Part shown: in pieces, positions 2,903 to 17,139 of the stretch
Layout of the letters: each line of letters opens with the position of its first letter
How positions within the stretch are numbered: position 1 is the first letter of the stretch
Virus record (IMG/VR): IMGVR_UViG_3300032087_001960
Location: 1 to 23,463 of that record
DNA: 23,463 nucleotides
Strand: one strand, 5' to 3'
Origin: a virus
The notes under the pieces: model-generated
Seen by the model: only the letters and a program-made list of their open reading frames with translations
Databases searched by the model: none
Told to the model about the DNA's origin: nothing
Position numbers and translations under genes: made by a program

Positions 2903-3080
2903 TATTTAATCTCCATAATAAAAATATTACTGCACCCAGGCATAAGGATATTGCAGCAAGCATTAGAAAATGATGCAGTGATGTAGCAATAGCCATAAGA
3001 CCAAGCAACACTGCACCTCCAGTAAGAACAGAAACACCAAACTCTTTGATGTTTTGTTTAAATTTTGATGATTTCACCAT
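2895..3080 (-). CDS. Small membrane protein, 61 aa, two predicted transmembrane helices
   Basis: A basic N-terminus (MVKSSKFKQNIKEFG) is followed by two hydrophobic helices at about residues 16-33 and 36-56, forming a hairpin that ends LLWRLNNG. I chose the ATG at 3080, not the longer frame that starts at 3155, because GAGGAGG lies 6-7 nt upstream of it and the extra 25 residues would lie wholly inside the VWA gene. It overlaps that gene by 23 bp. Two-helix hairpins of this size occur among phage holins, but nothing else supports that role. It could equally be a membrane partner of the VWA/MoxR pair encoded just upstream. Confidence 0.75.
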   Translation of the reverse strand: MVKSSKFKQNIKEFGVSVLTGGAVLLGLMAIATSLHHFLMLAAISLCLGAVIFLLWRLNNG

Positions 3081-4155
3081 AAGGCGCCTCCTCAGCGTAA
3101 GTTGATACCCATAAAACTGGATATGGTGGTTGTTCTCCGAAGTCGTTTGACTCAAGGTCAGTTAGATAAACTAACGCTTCGACATTAGGATGTTTTTCAT
3201 TGATGTATTCAATGATTGGGCTAAAGCAAGTACCACCTCTACCTTGATATGTAACCTTAAGAGGTAATGACTCACGTGTATAAGTTTCAGCAGCTTGAAC
3301 TTCAGTATCAAACTGTAAGAAATGTACAGCGTTTGGAGCTAGGTCTTGCAGAATAGTAGATGTTTCTTTTGTAAACTGTTCTAGCTCTTCATTTGTTATA
3401 GAACCTGAAGTATCAACAGCAACAGCTATTTCACCTATACATGGATTATAAGCAGAAGGTAAGAACATACCTTGACCAATAAACCTACGGTTTGGTCTAA
3501 CCCATGAATAGTCAGATTGGTTGTATGAACGCAAGAATCTTGCAAGAACCATACGCCAGTCAACTTTAGCTTCTGTTGCAATACCAACTACTTCTTCCAT
3601 TTTACTAGATAGTTTGCCTTGTGCTTTTGCAACTTCAGCTGCTTGGTTAATTGCAACTGTAAGTTGTGCTTCGACTGCACTAACAGAGGCACTGTTTGCA
3701 TCTGGGTGGTCAATAACACCACCACAACCACCAAGGTCTACAGCGATAGAGTCCCATCCCTCGGGAGGTTCGGGGAGTATACTGTAAACATGTTCGGTGG
3801 TCATGTTGGCGTATTGTGGGTCATACAAACCACCAGTGGGTAGTATGAAACTTTCTTGAGTTAGCAGATAATTAATCACATAGTCAGCAGCTACGTTCCA
3901 CTTTTTTGGATGTCTTTCTTGTCTACGTATGTGATGCATAAATACAACATGCATAACCTCGTGAGCTAGAAAACCTATACGTTCTTCAGGTTTGAGTTTG
4001 CCAAACCATTTTGGATTGTAGATAAGTGATTTACCATCAGTGGCACCCGTATCAATGTTGTCATCTTCTACAGGTTTTAAGCGTAGACATAGAGTGCCAA
4101 AGAATGGATTGTCAAGAATAAGTCTTGCACGTGCTTTTACAAATAATTCGTTCAT
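3058..4155 (-). CDS. Metallopeptidase-like VWA-domain protein (DUF2201 type), partner of MoxR ATPase
   Basis: 365 aa, two parts. The N-terminal part has HEVMH (residues 65-69), a zinc-metallopeptidase HExxH motif, followed by KKWNVAADYVIN (84-95) with the conserved WN-A-D-IN pattern of the DUF2201 family. The C-terminal part is a von Willebrand A-like domain: AVDTSGS (246-252) is the DxSxS metal-site motif, with GGT (307-309) and TDLES (332-336) completing the likely metal site. In bacteria such proteins are usually encoded beside MoxR-type AAA+ ATPases that work as chaperones or complex remodellers. Here a MoxR gene lies upstream at 5401-6423, separated by two unknown genes in the same tight operon. 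Whether the peptidase site is active is unknown. ATG at 4155 overlaps the previous stop (ATGA). Confidence 0.92.
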   Translation of the reverse strand: MNELFVKARARLILDNPFFGTLCLRLKPVEDDNIDTGATDGKSLIYNPKWFGKLKPEERIGFLAHEVMHVVFMHHIRRQERHPKKWNVAADYVINYLLTQESFILPTGGLYDPQYANMTTEHVYSILPEPPEGWDSIAVDLGGCGGVIDHPDANSASVSAVEAQLTVAINQAAEVAKAQGKLSSKMEEVVGIATEAKVDWRMVLARFLRSYNQSDYSWVRPNRRFIGQGMFLPSAYNPCIGEIAVAVDTSGSITNEELEQFTKETSTILQDLAPNAVHFLQFDTEVQAAETYTRESLPLKVTYQGRGGTCFSPIIEYINEKHPNVEALVYLTDLESNDFGEQPPYPVLWVSTYAEEAPYGEIIKI

Positions 4156-5400: not shown

Positions 5401-6423
5401 CTATAAAATGACATTAGCATTATCAACAATCCACTGACGACAGTGTTTGTTGGATTTAAGATTTTTATCAACAGCTAAACAACCCTTGATAAGTATCACT
5501 TGGAACTCGACAGGTAATTTTTTAGCTAGTTTAATTATGTTTTCCATTACATTATCGGTAGCTCTAGCAGCGACCGAACTAGACAATGCATACAGAATCG
5601 CTGGGTTCTCATCCTTCTTGTAAGTAGATGGGTCAGCAATTAATTTGTCGATGTTAGGCAACTTGTCTGCAATTTCTTTGTAAGCAAGAAACTCACCAGC
5701 TGGACCATCACCAACAATTGATGAGATACCAAAGAATAACGAATCATGGTCGATTTGGTCAGGCTGCACTTTTAGTTTTTTGTTAACAAAGGCCCACGCA
5801 CGTGGAGTTGGGAATGCATATTCATCAGCTTTGAAACTGTAAAGTAGATTAGGTCTGTATTGCAAGAAACCAATAACTTCTGGAGAGACATTATTGGCAT
5901 AAGCCCATGTAGTCCAATCTTCGATGTTAGCTTCCAACTCGTAGTGCGCAAGCCTGTTTCTTACAGGAGATGGCATTTGATAAACTGCTGCAGCATCAGT
6001 AAGCCTGTTGCCGGCAGCAAGAATTGACCAGCCTTCTGGTAACTCATAGTCACCGATACGTCTGGTAAGTAATAATTGCAGGAAAGCATTTTGTGTAGCT
6101 GGGGGAGCTGTAGGAAGTTCGTCAATGAACATCATACCTGTTTCACCATCCCTACTTTTGATAGGGAATACATCGGGAACAGCCCAGCGTGTAAAACGCT
6201 TTCCTGTCTCTTTCTCCTGCATGATGTGTGGGACTCCACGCACATCCACAGGATCGTAAAGGTTGGCACGAAAGTCTATAAGATTCATGTTGAGACTTTC
6301 AGCTACCTGTTGTGGTATTTCTGATTTACCGATGCCTGGTCCACCCCATATCATGGTGTTGATACCGGCACGCATATTTTGTTTAATCTCTGATATCAGA
6401 GCAGTGGGTTTAATAGAATGCAT
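5401..6423 (-). CDS. MoxR-type AAA+ ATPase
   Basis: 340 aa. ATP-driven remodeller or chaperone of the MoxR/dynein-related AAA+ group. Visible motifs: Walker A GGPGIGKSE (residues 27-35), Walker B MMFIDE (97-102), sensor 1 AAGN (136-139) and an arginine-bearing PSPVRNR segment (151-157). The segment DPVDVRGVPH (57-66) is typical of MoxR-like proteins. Members of this group usually act with a VWA-domain protein, and one is encoded three genes downstream (3058-4155). GGAGG 6 nt before the ATG supports the start. Target unknown: a phage assembly step, cofactor insertion into a host enzyme, or host takeover are all possible. Confidence 0.95.
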   Translation of the reverse strand: MHSIKPTALISEIKQNMRAGINTMIWGGPGIGKSEIPQQVAESLNMNLIDFRANLYDPVDVRGVPHIMQEKETGKRFTRWAVPDVFPIKSRDGETGMMFIDELPTAPPATQNAFLQLLLTRRIGDYELPEGWSILAAGNRLTDAAAVYQMPSPVRNRLAHYELEANIEDWTTWAYANNVSPEVIGFLQYRPNLLYSFKADEYAFPTPRAWAFVNKKLKVQPDQIDHDSLFFGISSIVGDGPAGEFLAYKEIADKLPNIDKLIADPSTYKKDENPAILYALSSSVAARATDNVMENIIKLAKKLPVEFQVILIKGCLAVDKNLKSNKHCRQWIVDNANVIL

Positions 6424-14659: not shown

Positions 14660-15724
14660 ATGGCGAAAAAAGAAGAAAACAGAGAAGTGAATGAGCTGGT
14701 CATGGACAGAATGCCAGGAGCAGATGCAATTTCAGAAGAAGAAACAAAACCTTTTGAAGTTGATCTAAATTTTGAAGAAGAGCCTAAGGATGAGGAGCCA
14801 GAAAATGAAGAAGTCTCAGAAGAAACTAACTCCCTTGCAGAAGAAGAAGTTGTTGAAGAAGAATCTGAACAGCAAAAAGAAGAAGAAAAATCTCCAGAAC
14901 CAGAAGCTTCAAGCGAAGAAGTCGTGGATGGAGAAAGCGAAGATGCTCCACAACCAGATATTCAGCCAGCTGAAGGAAGCGATGAACACGTTGCCGAAGA
15001 AGTAAACCAACAAAAACCACCTATGGTACCAAAATCAAGGTTGGATGAGGTTTTAGCAAAGCAAAAAGCATTACAAAAACAGTTAGATGAGATAAATCAG
15101 TCTAAACAAGAGCTAGAAAATGCTCCAGAATATGATTTTGCAGCAAAAGAAGCAGAATATCAGCAATTAGTGCTAGATGGCGAGGCTGATAAGGCAGTAA
15201 ATCTTAGAAATGAGATAAGAAATGCTGAAAAAGACCAATTTATGTTTGAAGTACAACAAAAAATGGGTCAAACAGTCCAACAAAGCCAAGAAGTAACAGC
15301 TTTACAAGCAAAAGCGGCTGAAATAGAAGCTAAATTTTCTGTTTTAAATGAAAATAGTGTTGATTTTAATGCTGACTTACAAAATGAAGTGATCGAATTG
15401 CGTAATGCATTCATGACTCAGGGTTATGCACCTGCTGATGCTTTAGAAAAAGCTACAAATTACACTTTAGCGGTAAAAGAACCCACTTTGTTACAGTCAG
15501 AACCTGTTGCTCCTACACCTAAAGTAGAAGACAAGGTAGTTGAGAAGAAAAAAGTAGCTAATATTAATAAAAAATTGAAAGCTGCAGAGTCTCAACCGCC
15601 TGAAATGAAAGGAGAAGGCGCTAGAGGTGAGAAAAAAGTAGATTTAAACACGTTATCTGACGATGAATTTAGTGCATTACCAGAAGAAACTTTACGTAGA
15701 CTACGTGGTGACTTTGGCACTTAG
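14660..15724 (+). CDS. Probable capsid scaffolding protein
   Basis: 354 aa. Expected to guide procapsid assembly and then leave. The first 110 residues are extremely acidic and rich in Glu/Pro/Ser (many EE pairs), so probably disordered. Residues 115-235 are charged helices likely to form coiled coil (RLDEVLAKQKALQKQLDEIN), and the C-terminal part is basic (KVANINKKLKAA), as expected for a shell-binding tail. The call rests on this architecture and its position between portal and capsid; sequence alone does not define the family. AGGAGG 9 nt before ATG 14660. Confidence 0.85.
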   Translation: MAKKEENREVNELVMDRMPGADAISEEETKPFEVDLNFEEEPKDEEPENEEVSEETNSLAEEEVVEEESEQQKEEEKSPEPEASSEEVVDGESEDAPQPDIQPAEGSDEHVAEEVNQQKPPMVPKSRLDEVLAKQKALQKQLDEINQSKQELENAPEYDFAAKEAEYQQLVLDGEADKAVNLRNEIRNAEKDQFMFEVQQKMGQTVQQSQEVTALQAKAAEIEAKFSVLNENSVDFNADLQNEVIELRNAFMTQGYAPADALEKATNYTLAVKEPTLLQSEPVAPTPKVEDKVVEKKKVANINKKLKAAESQPPEMKGEGARGEKKVDLNTLSDDEFSALPEETLRRLRGDFGT

Positions 15725-15741
15725 TTGGTATAACATATAAG
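15714..15741 (+). promoter_or_regulatory. Sigma70-like promoter for the capsid gene
   Basis: -35 TTGGCA (15714-15719, 5 of 6), 16-bp spacer, -10 TATAAG (15736-15741, 5 of 6). It overlaps the scaffold stop. The expected RNA start near 15748 coincides with the first base of the structured leader. The spacer length equals that of the 1961-1988 promoter. No experimental proof; match quality is the evidence. Confidence 0.65.
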
Positions 15742-15748
15742 TTCGCAC

Positions 15749-15898
15749 GCTAAAGCGATATTTAGCACGGGTCGTTCCGTAAAAACGTTTTCGCCTGCCA
15801 TGGCGTAAATCTGGCTGAGGTCGTACTCGTTAAAATACGAAAACGTGTCCCCAACGATAAAGGGTATACGGGTAAATAGTCGGCCCAGAAAAGCGACT
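15749..15898 (+). ncRNA. Structured 5' leader before the major capsid gene
   Basis: About 150 nt with several nested stems: GCTAAA/TTTAGC (15749-15766), ACGG/CCGT (15767-15780), a 9-bp long-range helix ACGTTTTCG (15785-15793) with CGAAAACGT (15838-15846), GAG/CTC inside it, and AGTCG/CGACT (15878-15898). The CGCC/GGCG hairpin near 15792-15805 competes for bases with the long helix, allowing two folds. An AT-rich single-stranded stretch and GGAGGG (15926-15931) follow before the capsid ATG. No open frame of note on either strand explains it. It could be a stabilising UTR, a translation switch, or a small RNA. Confidence 0.5.
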
Positions 15899-15936
15899 GG
15901 TTAGTTAATATTTTTAATTTAATTTGGAGGGCCAAA

Positions 15937-17082
15937 ATGGCTAATACAAACTTTTCATCACTGACCAGTGAACAGCTTACTATCTGGTCTCGTGATTTTT
16001 GGCGTGTCGCTAGAAATATGTCCTTCATTAACCAATTCGCGGGTAGCGGACCTAACGCAATGGTTCAGAGAATATCTGAGCTTACTCAATCAGAAAAAGG
16101 AGCTAGAGCTGTATTAACACTTTTAGCTGACATGACTGGTGATGGTATTGTTGGGGACAACACTCTTGAAGGTAATGAAGAAACATTAAGAGCTTACGAC
16201 ATCGTCGTACAACTTGATCAATTAAGATTTGCGAATAGACTTGCGGGTAGATTAGCAGATCAAAAATCAGTTGTAAATTTCCGTGAGCACTCAAGAGACG
16301 CTCTTGCTTATGCAATGGCTGATAGAATAGACCAATTAGCGTTTTTAACGCTTTCTGGCATTAACTACACACTGAAAAACAGTGGTGCATTAAGACCTGT
16401 CCTAACTTCTGGACAAAATCTTGGTGACCTTGCGTTTGGAGGTGACATCACAGCACCAACTTCTAACAGACATAGAAGATGGGATGCAACTTCAGGCTTA
16501 GTAGCTGGTGACGTAACTGCTGTAGCAGCTGCGGATACAATCACTTATGAATGTATCGTTGCTCTAAAAGCTTATGCTAAAGATAACTATATCAGAGGCG
16601 TAAGAGGTGCTGGTGGAGAAGAGGTATATCACCTTTTCGTATCTCCACAAGTAATGGCTGACCTTAAACTTGACTCAGATTTTCTTGCTAACGTAAGAAA
16701 CGCTGGTGTAAGAGGACCAAGTAACTCATTGTTCTCAGGTTCTTCAAGCTTAATGGTTGATGGAGTTATGATCCATGAGTTTAGACATGTATTTAATACA
16801 GCTAATGCTCTTACTGGAACATCTTCAAATGCCGGTTCTGCTGGATATAAGTGGGGCGCTGACGCTGACGTCAACGGTTCTGCTTCTTTATTCTGTGGAG
16901 CACAAGCTCTTGCTATGGCTGATATCGGATTACCTGAAATAGTTGAAGATACATTTGACTATGGTAACCAAAATGGTATTTCCATCGGTAAGATCTTTGG
17001 TCTTAAGAAGCCTAAGTTCAACAGTGACTATAATAGTTCAACTGAAGACTTTGGTGTTATCAGACTGGATGTTGCATACTAA
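15937..17082 (+). CDS. Major capsid protein, N4-gp56 type (HK97 fold)
   Basis: 381 aa. Builds the icosahedral shell. Recognised from the N4-gp56/Phage_capsid_3 pattern: the N-terminal WSRDFWRVARNMSFINQF region, DMTGDGIVGDNTLEGNEE (about 67-84), RLAGRLADQKSVVNFREHSR (about 103-122) and the C-terminal region with EVYHLFVSPQVMADLK and VDGVMIHEFRHV. Short for the family but with all conserved blocks. GGAGGG 5-6 nt before ATG. It has a private promoter and structured leader upstream and a strong terminator after it, fitting the high copy number needed. Confidence 0.96.
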   Translation: MANTNFSSLTSEQLTIWSRDFWRVARNMSFINQFAGSGPNAMVQRISELTQSEKGARAVLTLLADMTGDGIVGDNTLEGNEETLRAYDIVVQLDQLRFANRLAGRLADQKSVVNFREHSRDALAYAMADRIDQLAFLTLSGINYTLKNSGALRPVLTSGQNLGDLAFGGDITAPTSNRHRRWDATSGLVAGDVTAVAAADTITYECIVALKAYAKDNYIRGVRGAGGEEVYHLFVSPQVMADLKLDSDFLANVRNAGVRGPSNSLFSGSSSLMVDGVMIHEFRHVFNTANALTGTSSNAGSAGYKWGADADVNGSASLFCGAQALAMADIGLPEIVEDTFDYGNQNGISIGKIFGLKKPKFNSDYNSSTEDFGVIRLDVAY

Positions 17083-17092
17083 GTATGTATTC

Positions 17093-17126
17093 TTGGGTGG
17101 TTCAATTTCGAGCCACCCAACTTTTA
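17093..17126 (+). terminator. Intrinsic terminator after the capsid gene
   Basis: Stem of up to 11 bp: TTGGGTGGTTC (17093-17103) with GAGCCACCCAA (17110-17120, one G-U pair), loop AATTTC, then CTTTTATT. It lies 11 bp past the capsid stop. The next gene begins at 17140, so read-through or a separate start is needed for the connector genes. Confidence 0.85.
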
Positions 17127-17139
17127 TTAGGAGAAAAAA

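Follow-up and report, generated by a model that had tools for sequence, protein, structure and literature searches.

The window, that is, the whole stretch of DNA analysed here, comprises the 23,463 bases of a virus record from a marine phage. The stop of an upstream gene ends at position 15724 and the ATG of the major capsid protein gene follows at 15937, leaving a gap of 212 nt without a notable sense open reading frame; the earlier statement that nothing coding explains this interval is thus borne out. The gene directly preceded by the leader belongs to the phrog_334/Phage_capsid_3 type, and the upstream ORF showed no match in PHROGs or Pfam. The features of the locus, with the pseudoknots as proposed below, are the following.

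14660–15724, plus strand: gene in the scaffold position, placed by position
15726–15734, plus strand: putative extended -10 element TGG-TATAAC, from aligned upstream regions; predicted start near 15741
15743–15766, plus strand: proposed pseudoknot 1; UCGC (15743–15746) with GCGA (15755–15758), stem 15749–15754 with 15761–15766
15767–15787, plus strand: proposed pseudoknot 2; stem 15767–15770 with 15777–15780, loop 15773–15776 with 15784–15787, A-rich third loop
15792–15815, plus strand: proposed pseudoknot 3; CGCC/GGCG (15792–15795 with 15802–15805), loop GCCA (15797–15800) with UGGC (15812–15815)
15816–15840, plus strand: proposed pseudoknot 4; stem 15816–15819 with 15826–15829, UCGUA (15821–15825) with UACGA (15836–15840), A-rich third loop
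15844–15870, plus strand: element 5; CCC/GGG (15850–15852 with 15862–15864), loop AACGAUAAA
15870–15899, plus strand: proposed pseudoknot 6; GG (15871–15872) with CC (15884–15885), stem 15877–15882 with 15894–15899
15901–15925, plus strand: unstructured A+U-rich spacer 5' of the Shine-Dalgarno sequence, from composition in relatives
15926–15930, plus strand: Shine-Dalgarno sequence GGAGG, from the sequence
15937–17082, plus strand: major capsid protein gene (phrog_334, E = 1.1e-78; Pfam Phage_capsid_3, E = 1.5e-41)
17093–17130, plus strand: predicted intrinsic terminator of the capsid mRNA, from the terminator scan and relatives

To explore the distribution of the leader, IMG/VR was scanned with the capsid protein, which retrieved at least 592 confirmed relatives, and the best 80 were taken. 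Wherever the contigs extend far enough, the gap 5' of the capsid gene measures 207 to 242 nt and contains a similar leader. A covariance model trained on 38 diverse leaders, the window's included, matched all 80 loci, most of which lie outside the training set. There was one match per locus, on the sense strand and just 5' of the capsid start, and two were truncated by contig ends; the leader of the window, itself a training sequence, scored 165.4 bits (E = 1.8e-42). In the reverse test IMG/VR was scanned with the core string CCCAACGATAAAGGGTAYACGG and 80 loci were read: the capsid gene lies 75–96 nt downstream of the string and in the same direction in 77 of them, and in the remaining three the contig ends too early, two of these still showing the first capsid codons. 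No leader copy elsewhere than before the capsid gene was readable at these 80 loci, and neither the window nor the relatives' contigs examined contain a second sense copy. The marine phage group of the window is common in IMG/VR. Three close members occur in contigs filed under metagenome-assembled genomes (MAGs) of Gammaproteobacteria TMED226 and Neomarinimicrobiota RS350 and in a Proteobacteria bin, MAG binning of phage contigs being unreliable.

The constancy of this position bears on the idea, raised in the original prediction, of a processed small RNA: cleavage of the capsid transcript would release an RNA that acts in trans or has a structural role, for example as a regulator of other genes or as a part resembling prohead RNA. 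A self-contained fold with defined ends that adjoins head genes would suit such a product. Against it, in every readable case the core string of the RNA lies 75–96 nt 5' of the capsid start and in the same direction, no second location was found, and the terminator scan of the window revealed no separate terminator after the leader RNA; we consider this explanation improbable.

Alignment of the 38 diverse leaders allowed paired changes to be counted. The proposed pairs were taken from the very alignment in which they were counted, and the test is therefore somewhat favoured: 93.4% of the cells at paired positions are canonical (32–41% in slid controls), 31 of the 50 pairs changed on both sides, a number reached by 0 of 500 shuffles, and the double-changed cells amount to 224, as compared with 62 in shuffles. 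Two further approaches, an all-against-all covariation ranking and an energy search, are independent of the proposed structure. For the former we used the G statistic with average-product correction in a custom script after the R-scape idea, and the null was obtained by simulating parsimony substitutions along a tree from FastTree. The top covarying pairs are nearly all canonical pairs of the proposed fold. Among 103 unique leaders, 13 of the 52 proposed pairs had E < 0.05 within the proposed set, with pseudoknots 1, 3 and 4 represented, and no pair outside the proposal reached E < 0.05 over all pairs on the tree null. Covariance analysis of aligned homologous leaders had been named as the check for a structured capsid-mRNA leader, and it supports such a leader decisively.

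The energy search looked for chains of H-type pseudoknots, with approximate stacking energies only and with dinucleotide shuffles as the null. It found six units in the window (15743–15766, 15767–15787, 15792–15815, 15816–15840, 15844–15864 and 15870–15899), and the mean z of the chain score was -5.7 for 17 non-redundant leaders of the window's clade, -2.4 for 45 leaders of a group related to Pseudomonas phage KPP25 (see below) and -0.85 for capsid coding segments. The leader is best read as six head-to-tail H-type pseudoknots tiling 15743–15899, the fifth of which is alternatively a hairpin.

Pseudoknot 1 covaries as UCGU/ACGA, UCGC/GCGA and UCGG/CCGA. A model in which hairpins 1 and 2 kiss through their loops was dropped, since the covariation partner of loop 1 is the UUCG strand upstream. 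The stem of pseudoknot 2 shows strong covariation; its loop helix is 90% canonical, with CGCU/AGCG and CGUG/CACG variants and no pair individually significant on the tree null. Covariation was found in both helices of pseudoknot 3, one of which is the inner CGCC/GGCG hairpin already recognised in the single sequence, which is present at 15792–15805 and conserved. Pseudoknot 4 is likewise supported by covariation, some of its pairs being significant on the tree null. In element 5, the CGU at 15844–15846 can pair with the loop ACG at 15854–15856 (pseudoknot 5) or with ACG at 15868–15870 (a longer hairpin), and covariation cannot separate the two because the element is near-invariant. The stem pair 15879–15897 of pseudoknot 6 is significant, whereas support is weak for the pairs at the outer end of helix 6. 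The two-pair helix of this pseudoknot has the support of the pair counts; its pair 15872–15884 is fully canonical with G-C/A-U exchange, below significance on the tree null. The loops ACGAUA and UAAAA and the stretch GGGUAUACGG are conserved more than pairing requires.

A plain nested minimum-free-energy fold of the window leader gave z = -1.14, with 22 of 200 shuffles equally good, which is not significant. The signal sits in pseudoknots, to which nested folding is blind. A foldable leader had been predicted correctly in that the region is structured, but the nested stems on which that view relied are not remarkable and the train of pseudoknots was missed. The 9-bp long-range helix ACGTTTTCG/CGAAAACGT (15785–15793 with 15838–15846) can form in the window, but its covariation among the 38 relatives is not above shuffles; individual inner pairs fail to form in as many as 21 of the 38, and its conserved ends double as parts of pseudoknots 2–4 and element 5. 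The suggested two-state switch between this helix and the CGCC hairpin is thus unsupported in the window's clade, where neither the helix test nor the all-pairs covariation revealed a conserved alternative fold.

The paired positions contain 83 G-U cells and 13 A-C cells, an excess which indicates that the sense (plus) strand acts as RNA and that the conserved object is not a DNA element. The leader is also better conserved (identity 0.78) than third codon positions at the capsid gene start (0.61), being higher in 98.9% of 703 pairs. A DNA-level element, such as a packaging site, an origin or protein-binding repeats, or a chance fold could be argued from the non-significant nested folding of the single sequence, but the both-sided changes in 31 of the 50 pairs, the strand asymmetry of 83 against 13 cells and the constant orientation and place before the capsid gene all oppose it, and covariation together with strand asymmetry effectively excludes this explanation.

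Analysis of the upstream regions indicates that the best conserved promoter feature is a predicted extended -10 (TGn followed by a TAnnnn hexamer), found in 24 of 38 relatives, mostly 8–12 nt 5' of the first pseudoknot strand. The promoter proposed earlier, TTGGCA (15714–15719), N16 and TATAAG (15736–15741), is present in the window; the extended -10 at 15726–15734 is better conserved. Promoter-like sites number 23 between 10000 and 23463, where shuffles lead one to expect 34, and as they are no commoner than chance, evidence for a promoter has to come from the relatives. The extended -10 places the predicted start near 15741, so that about two bases stay free 5' of pseudoknot 1, and on this basis we moved the start from the 15748 given in the original prediction, a position that is disfavoured because pseudoknot 1 would lose its 5' strand (15743–15746). 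At the other end, the strong terminator noted 3' of the capsid stop was confirmed: the hairpin at 17093–17120 is the best of six terminator-like sites between 10000 and 23463, and 30 of 37 relatives have such a hairpin 3' of the capsid stop codon, as compared with 1 of 152 control windows within the gene. The conserved extended -10 and the terminator-like hairpins flanking the unit suggest that the capsid gene is transcribed as a separate mRNA, with a start near 15741 and a probable end at the terminator after the capsid gene; sequence comparison is the basis for this modified form of the capsid unit first proposed.

Among cultured phages, relatives of the capsid protein occur in Pseudomonas phage KPP25 (52% identity), phage phiA008 of Aeromonas and Acidovorax phage AP1, which have gaps of 160–200 nt at the same place; those of LASTA and Bcep22-like phages are more distant. 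A scan with the phiA008 capsid as query gave no result, and blastn of the leader against cultured phages returned chance matches only, of about 24–38 nt. KPP25-like relatives have related pseudoknot trains: many of their IMG/VR leaders reuse two modules, UUCGN followed by a hairpin with loop NCGAYA, and a stem-loop-stem-UAAAAA-GUCG pseudoknot. On 71 sources, the model of the window's clade gave seven further matches with E up to 10, the best being L101 (E = 6e-4). All seven start on the sense strand at most about 170 nt before a capsid start, a target that, as estimated by hand, covers about 2% of the sequence searched. A terminator-like hairpin lies 5' of the leader in 39 of 71 KPP25-like upstream regions. 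A further locus, on a 72,559-base contig of Pasteurella testudinis DSM 23072 (L372), carries a more distant capsid relative of 52% identity with its own structured-looking leader; it is possibly a prophage in a cultured bacterium, which would provide an experimental entry point.

In the KPP25-like group, complementarity between leader and Shine-Dalgarno region is higher within a locus than between loci (18.6 versus 15.9, p < 5e-5). Against shuffles the mean z is 1.46, with p < 0.05 in 36% of the leaders; in L097, for example, 10 bp form between CUUUCGCUUG and CAAGCGAAAG. Competition between this pairing and a pseudoknot is visible in three leaders (L093, L095 and L096) and is not general, and the overlap of anti-Shine-Dalgarno segments with pseudoknot helices is not enriched in this group (p = 0.48). 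No such complementarity was detected in the window's clade (z = -0.04).

These data make it nearly certain that the element acts in cis, as a leader RNA of the capsid mRNA, and since the pseudoknots are kept while the letters change, the RNA very probably controls the amount of capsid protein. Our preferred reading, to which we give a probability of about 0.48, is that of a protein-bound translational operator acting in cis and resembling that of T4 gene 32, which would set capsid dosage. A separate capsid mRNA would start at the extended -10 promoter, which overlaps the upstream gene at its end, with 15741–15936 as its leader; the leader folds into six tandem pseudoknots, element 5 being less certain, its 5' end adjoining the first, followed by an open A+U-rich ribosome-binding stretch. 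A protein might then dock on the train, reach into the ribosome-binding site and so adjust translation. The simplest candidate binders would be an RNA-binding protein of the host or an overproduced capsid-assembly protein, namely capsid or scaffold; that repeated modules would suit a protein produced so abundantly is a guess. The operator is favoured by the train in 80 of 80 relatives, its capsid-only position, the sense strand, the conserved loops and the A+U-rich spacer, the spacers of relatives being 91% A+U on average versus 54% for the structured core.

The main rival to an operator is mRNA stabilisation, in which the train would be a constitutive 5' stabiliser or insulator that blocks 5'-end-dependent decay and leaves the ribosome-binding site open, giving a long-lived mRNA without any regulator. 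A first pseudoknot only about two bases from the predicted 5' end, the open A+U-rich spacer and the terminator of the capsid unit itself are consistent with this. Moreover, the window's clade has neither Shine-Dalgarno complementarity nor a conserved alternative fold, so that for this clade a passive function is just as compatible with the data. On the other side, the conservation of loops and sequence exceeds what stability requires, and the complementarity in the KPP25-like leaders suggests translational regulation; we regard stabilisation as possible but doubtful.

Pseudoknot folds are common among riboswitches, and the pseudoknots of the leader, which are compact and strongly conserved and have A-rich third loops, could suggest a sensor in which a small molecule or ion stabilises them and alters capsid translation. 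The window's clade shows no expression platform, as judged from the missing leader/Shine-Dalgarno complementarity, which the KPP25-like group does have; the RNA was found before one virion gene only and not before metabolic genes, and it consists of repeated modules and not of a single binding core. We consider a riboswitch even less probable than a cut RNA.

In the KPP25-like group the output of the proposed operator may be more direct, through pairing of the leader to its own Shine-Dalgarno region, as the complementarity found there indicates. More tentatively, the leaders could represent a widespread class of tandem-pseudoknot operators in tailed DNA phages, serving capsid feedback by a capsid-assembly protein with clade-specific outputs, which would be spreading over the A+U-rich ribosome-binding site in the marine phages and Shine-Dalgarno pairing in the KPP25-like ones.

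Consecutive H-type pseudoknots that affect translation and stability are known from the upstream pseudoknot domains of plant viruses; these lie in the 3' untranslated region of RNA viruses, and homology is not expected. The T4/T2 gene 32 operator resembles the capsid leader in having an H-type pseudoknot in a phage mRNA leader, followed by an A+U-rich unstructured ribosome-binding region (PMC3014915). There, the pseudoknot is the presumed nucleation site from which gp32 spreads over the ribosome-binding site, and a 2010 review regarded T4-type gene 32 as perhaps the sole viral case of autoregulation by pseudoknot-based translational control (PMC3014915). The likeness is one of layout: gene 32 has one pseudoknot and the capsid leader six in tandem, and gene 32 encodes the single-stranded-DNA-binding protein that binds its operator, whereas the gene in the window encodes the major capsid protein. 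The ribosomal protein S15 operator (rpsO, RF00114) also places a leader pseudoknot near the ribosome-binding site, for autogenous control (PMC3014915), but the window leader has six units. The S15 model scored 13.3 bits in the window (cut-off 39.5, E = 1.3) at a site not over the train. Multiple tandem pseudoknots in a single bacterial RNA are found in tmRNA (PMC1168896); the window has no tRNA-like domain or tag frame, ARAGORN predicted 0 genes and Rfam gave 0 matches. The manA, wcaG and PhotoRC-II motifs are structured RNAs of marine phages (PMC2864571), but they are linked to metabolic or photosynthesis genes and no match to them was found in the window or in 20 related loci. The word capsid is absent from that survey of 104 motifs, which includes marine metagenomes (PMC2864571).

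The search of Rfam 15 at gathering score returned 0 matches for the window and 20 related loci, a permissive search gave nothing relevant, and the leader is unlisted in that release. No paper on such a capsid leader was found in the literature searched, which excluded most subscription papers, and within that literature the RNA family appears to be undescribed. Six tandem pseudoknots in a 5' leader had no counterpart in these searches and appear to be a new architecture among known cis-regulatory leader RNAs. How tailed DNA phages dose their most abundant protein is poorly known, and if the leader is an operator, pseudoknot-based translational control would extend to the capsid genes of many phages. 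The leader is also a compact RNA suited to structural study.

We also detected a CsrA-like gene annotated directly before a capsid leader of about 100 nt in LASTA, BcepIL02, PEp14 and Itty13 (L087, L088, L379 and L380), whose capsids are only distantly related to that of the window. In some of these leaders a single long hairpin close to the start codon looks possible, and the capsid leader may be a control site in this wider group. CsrA-type control was not carried over to the window leader, since the leaders of these four phages are about 100 nt long and different-looking, with 0–3 GGA.

Elsewhere in the window, a lone plus-strand ORF at 2035–2445 (136 aa, no Pfam match) stands amid minus-strand genes, preceded by the promoter-like TTGACA-16-TATGTT at 1961–1988 and followed by a hairpin at 2453–2470 with a terminator score on either strand. 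This ORF may form a further single-gene unit, for instance for a virion protein. On the minus strand, 3058–4155 and 5401–6423 encode a DUF2201 metallopeptidase and VWA-like protein near a weak AAA ATPase match, resembling an ATPase-VWA pair. Also on the minus strand, the gene at 1250–1738 matches a pyrimidine dimer DNA glycosylase (Pyr_excise, E = 9e-10) and overlaps the ORF at 3–1265.
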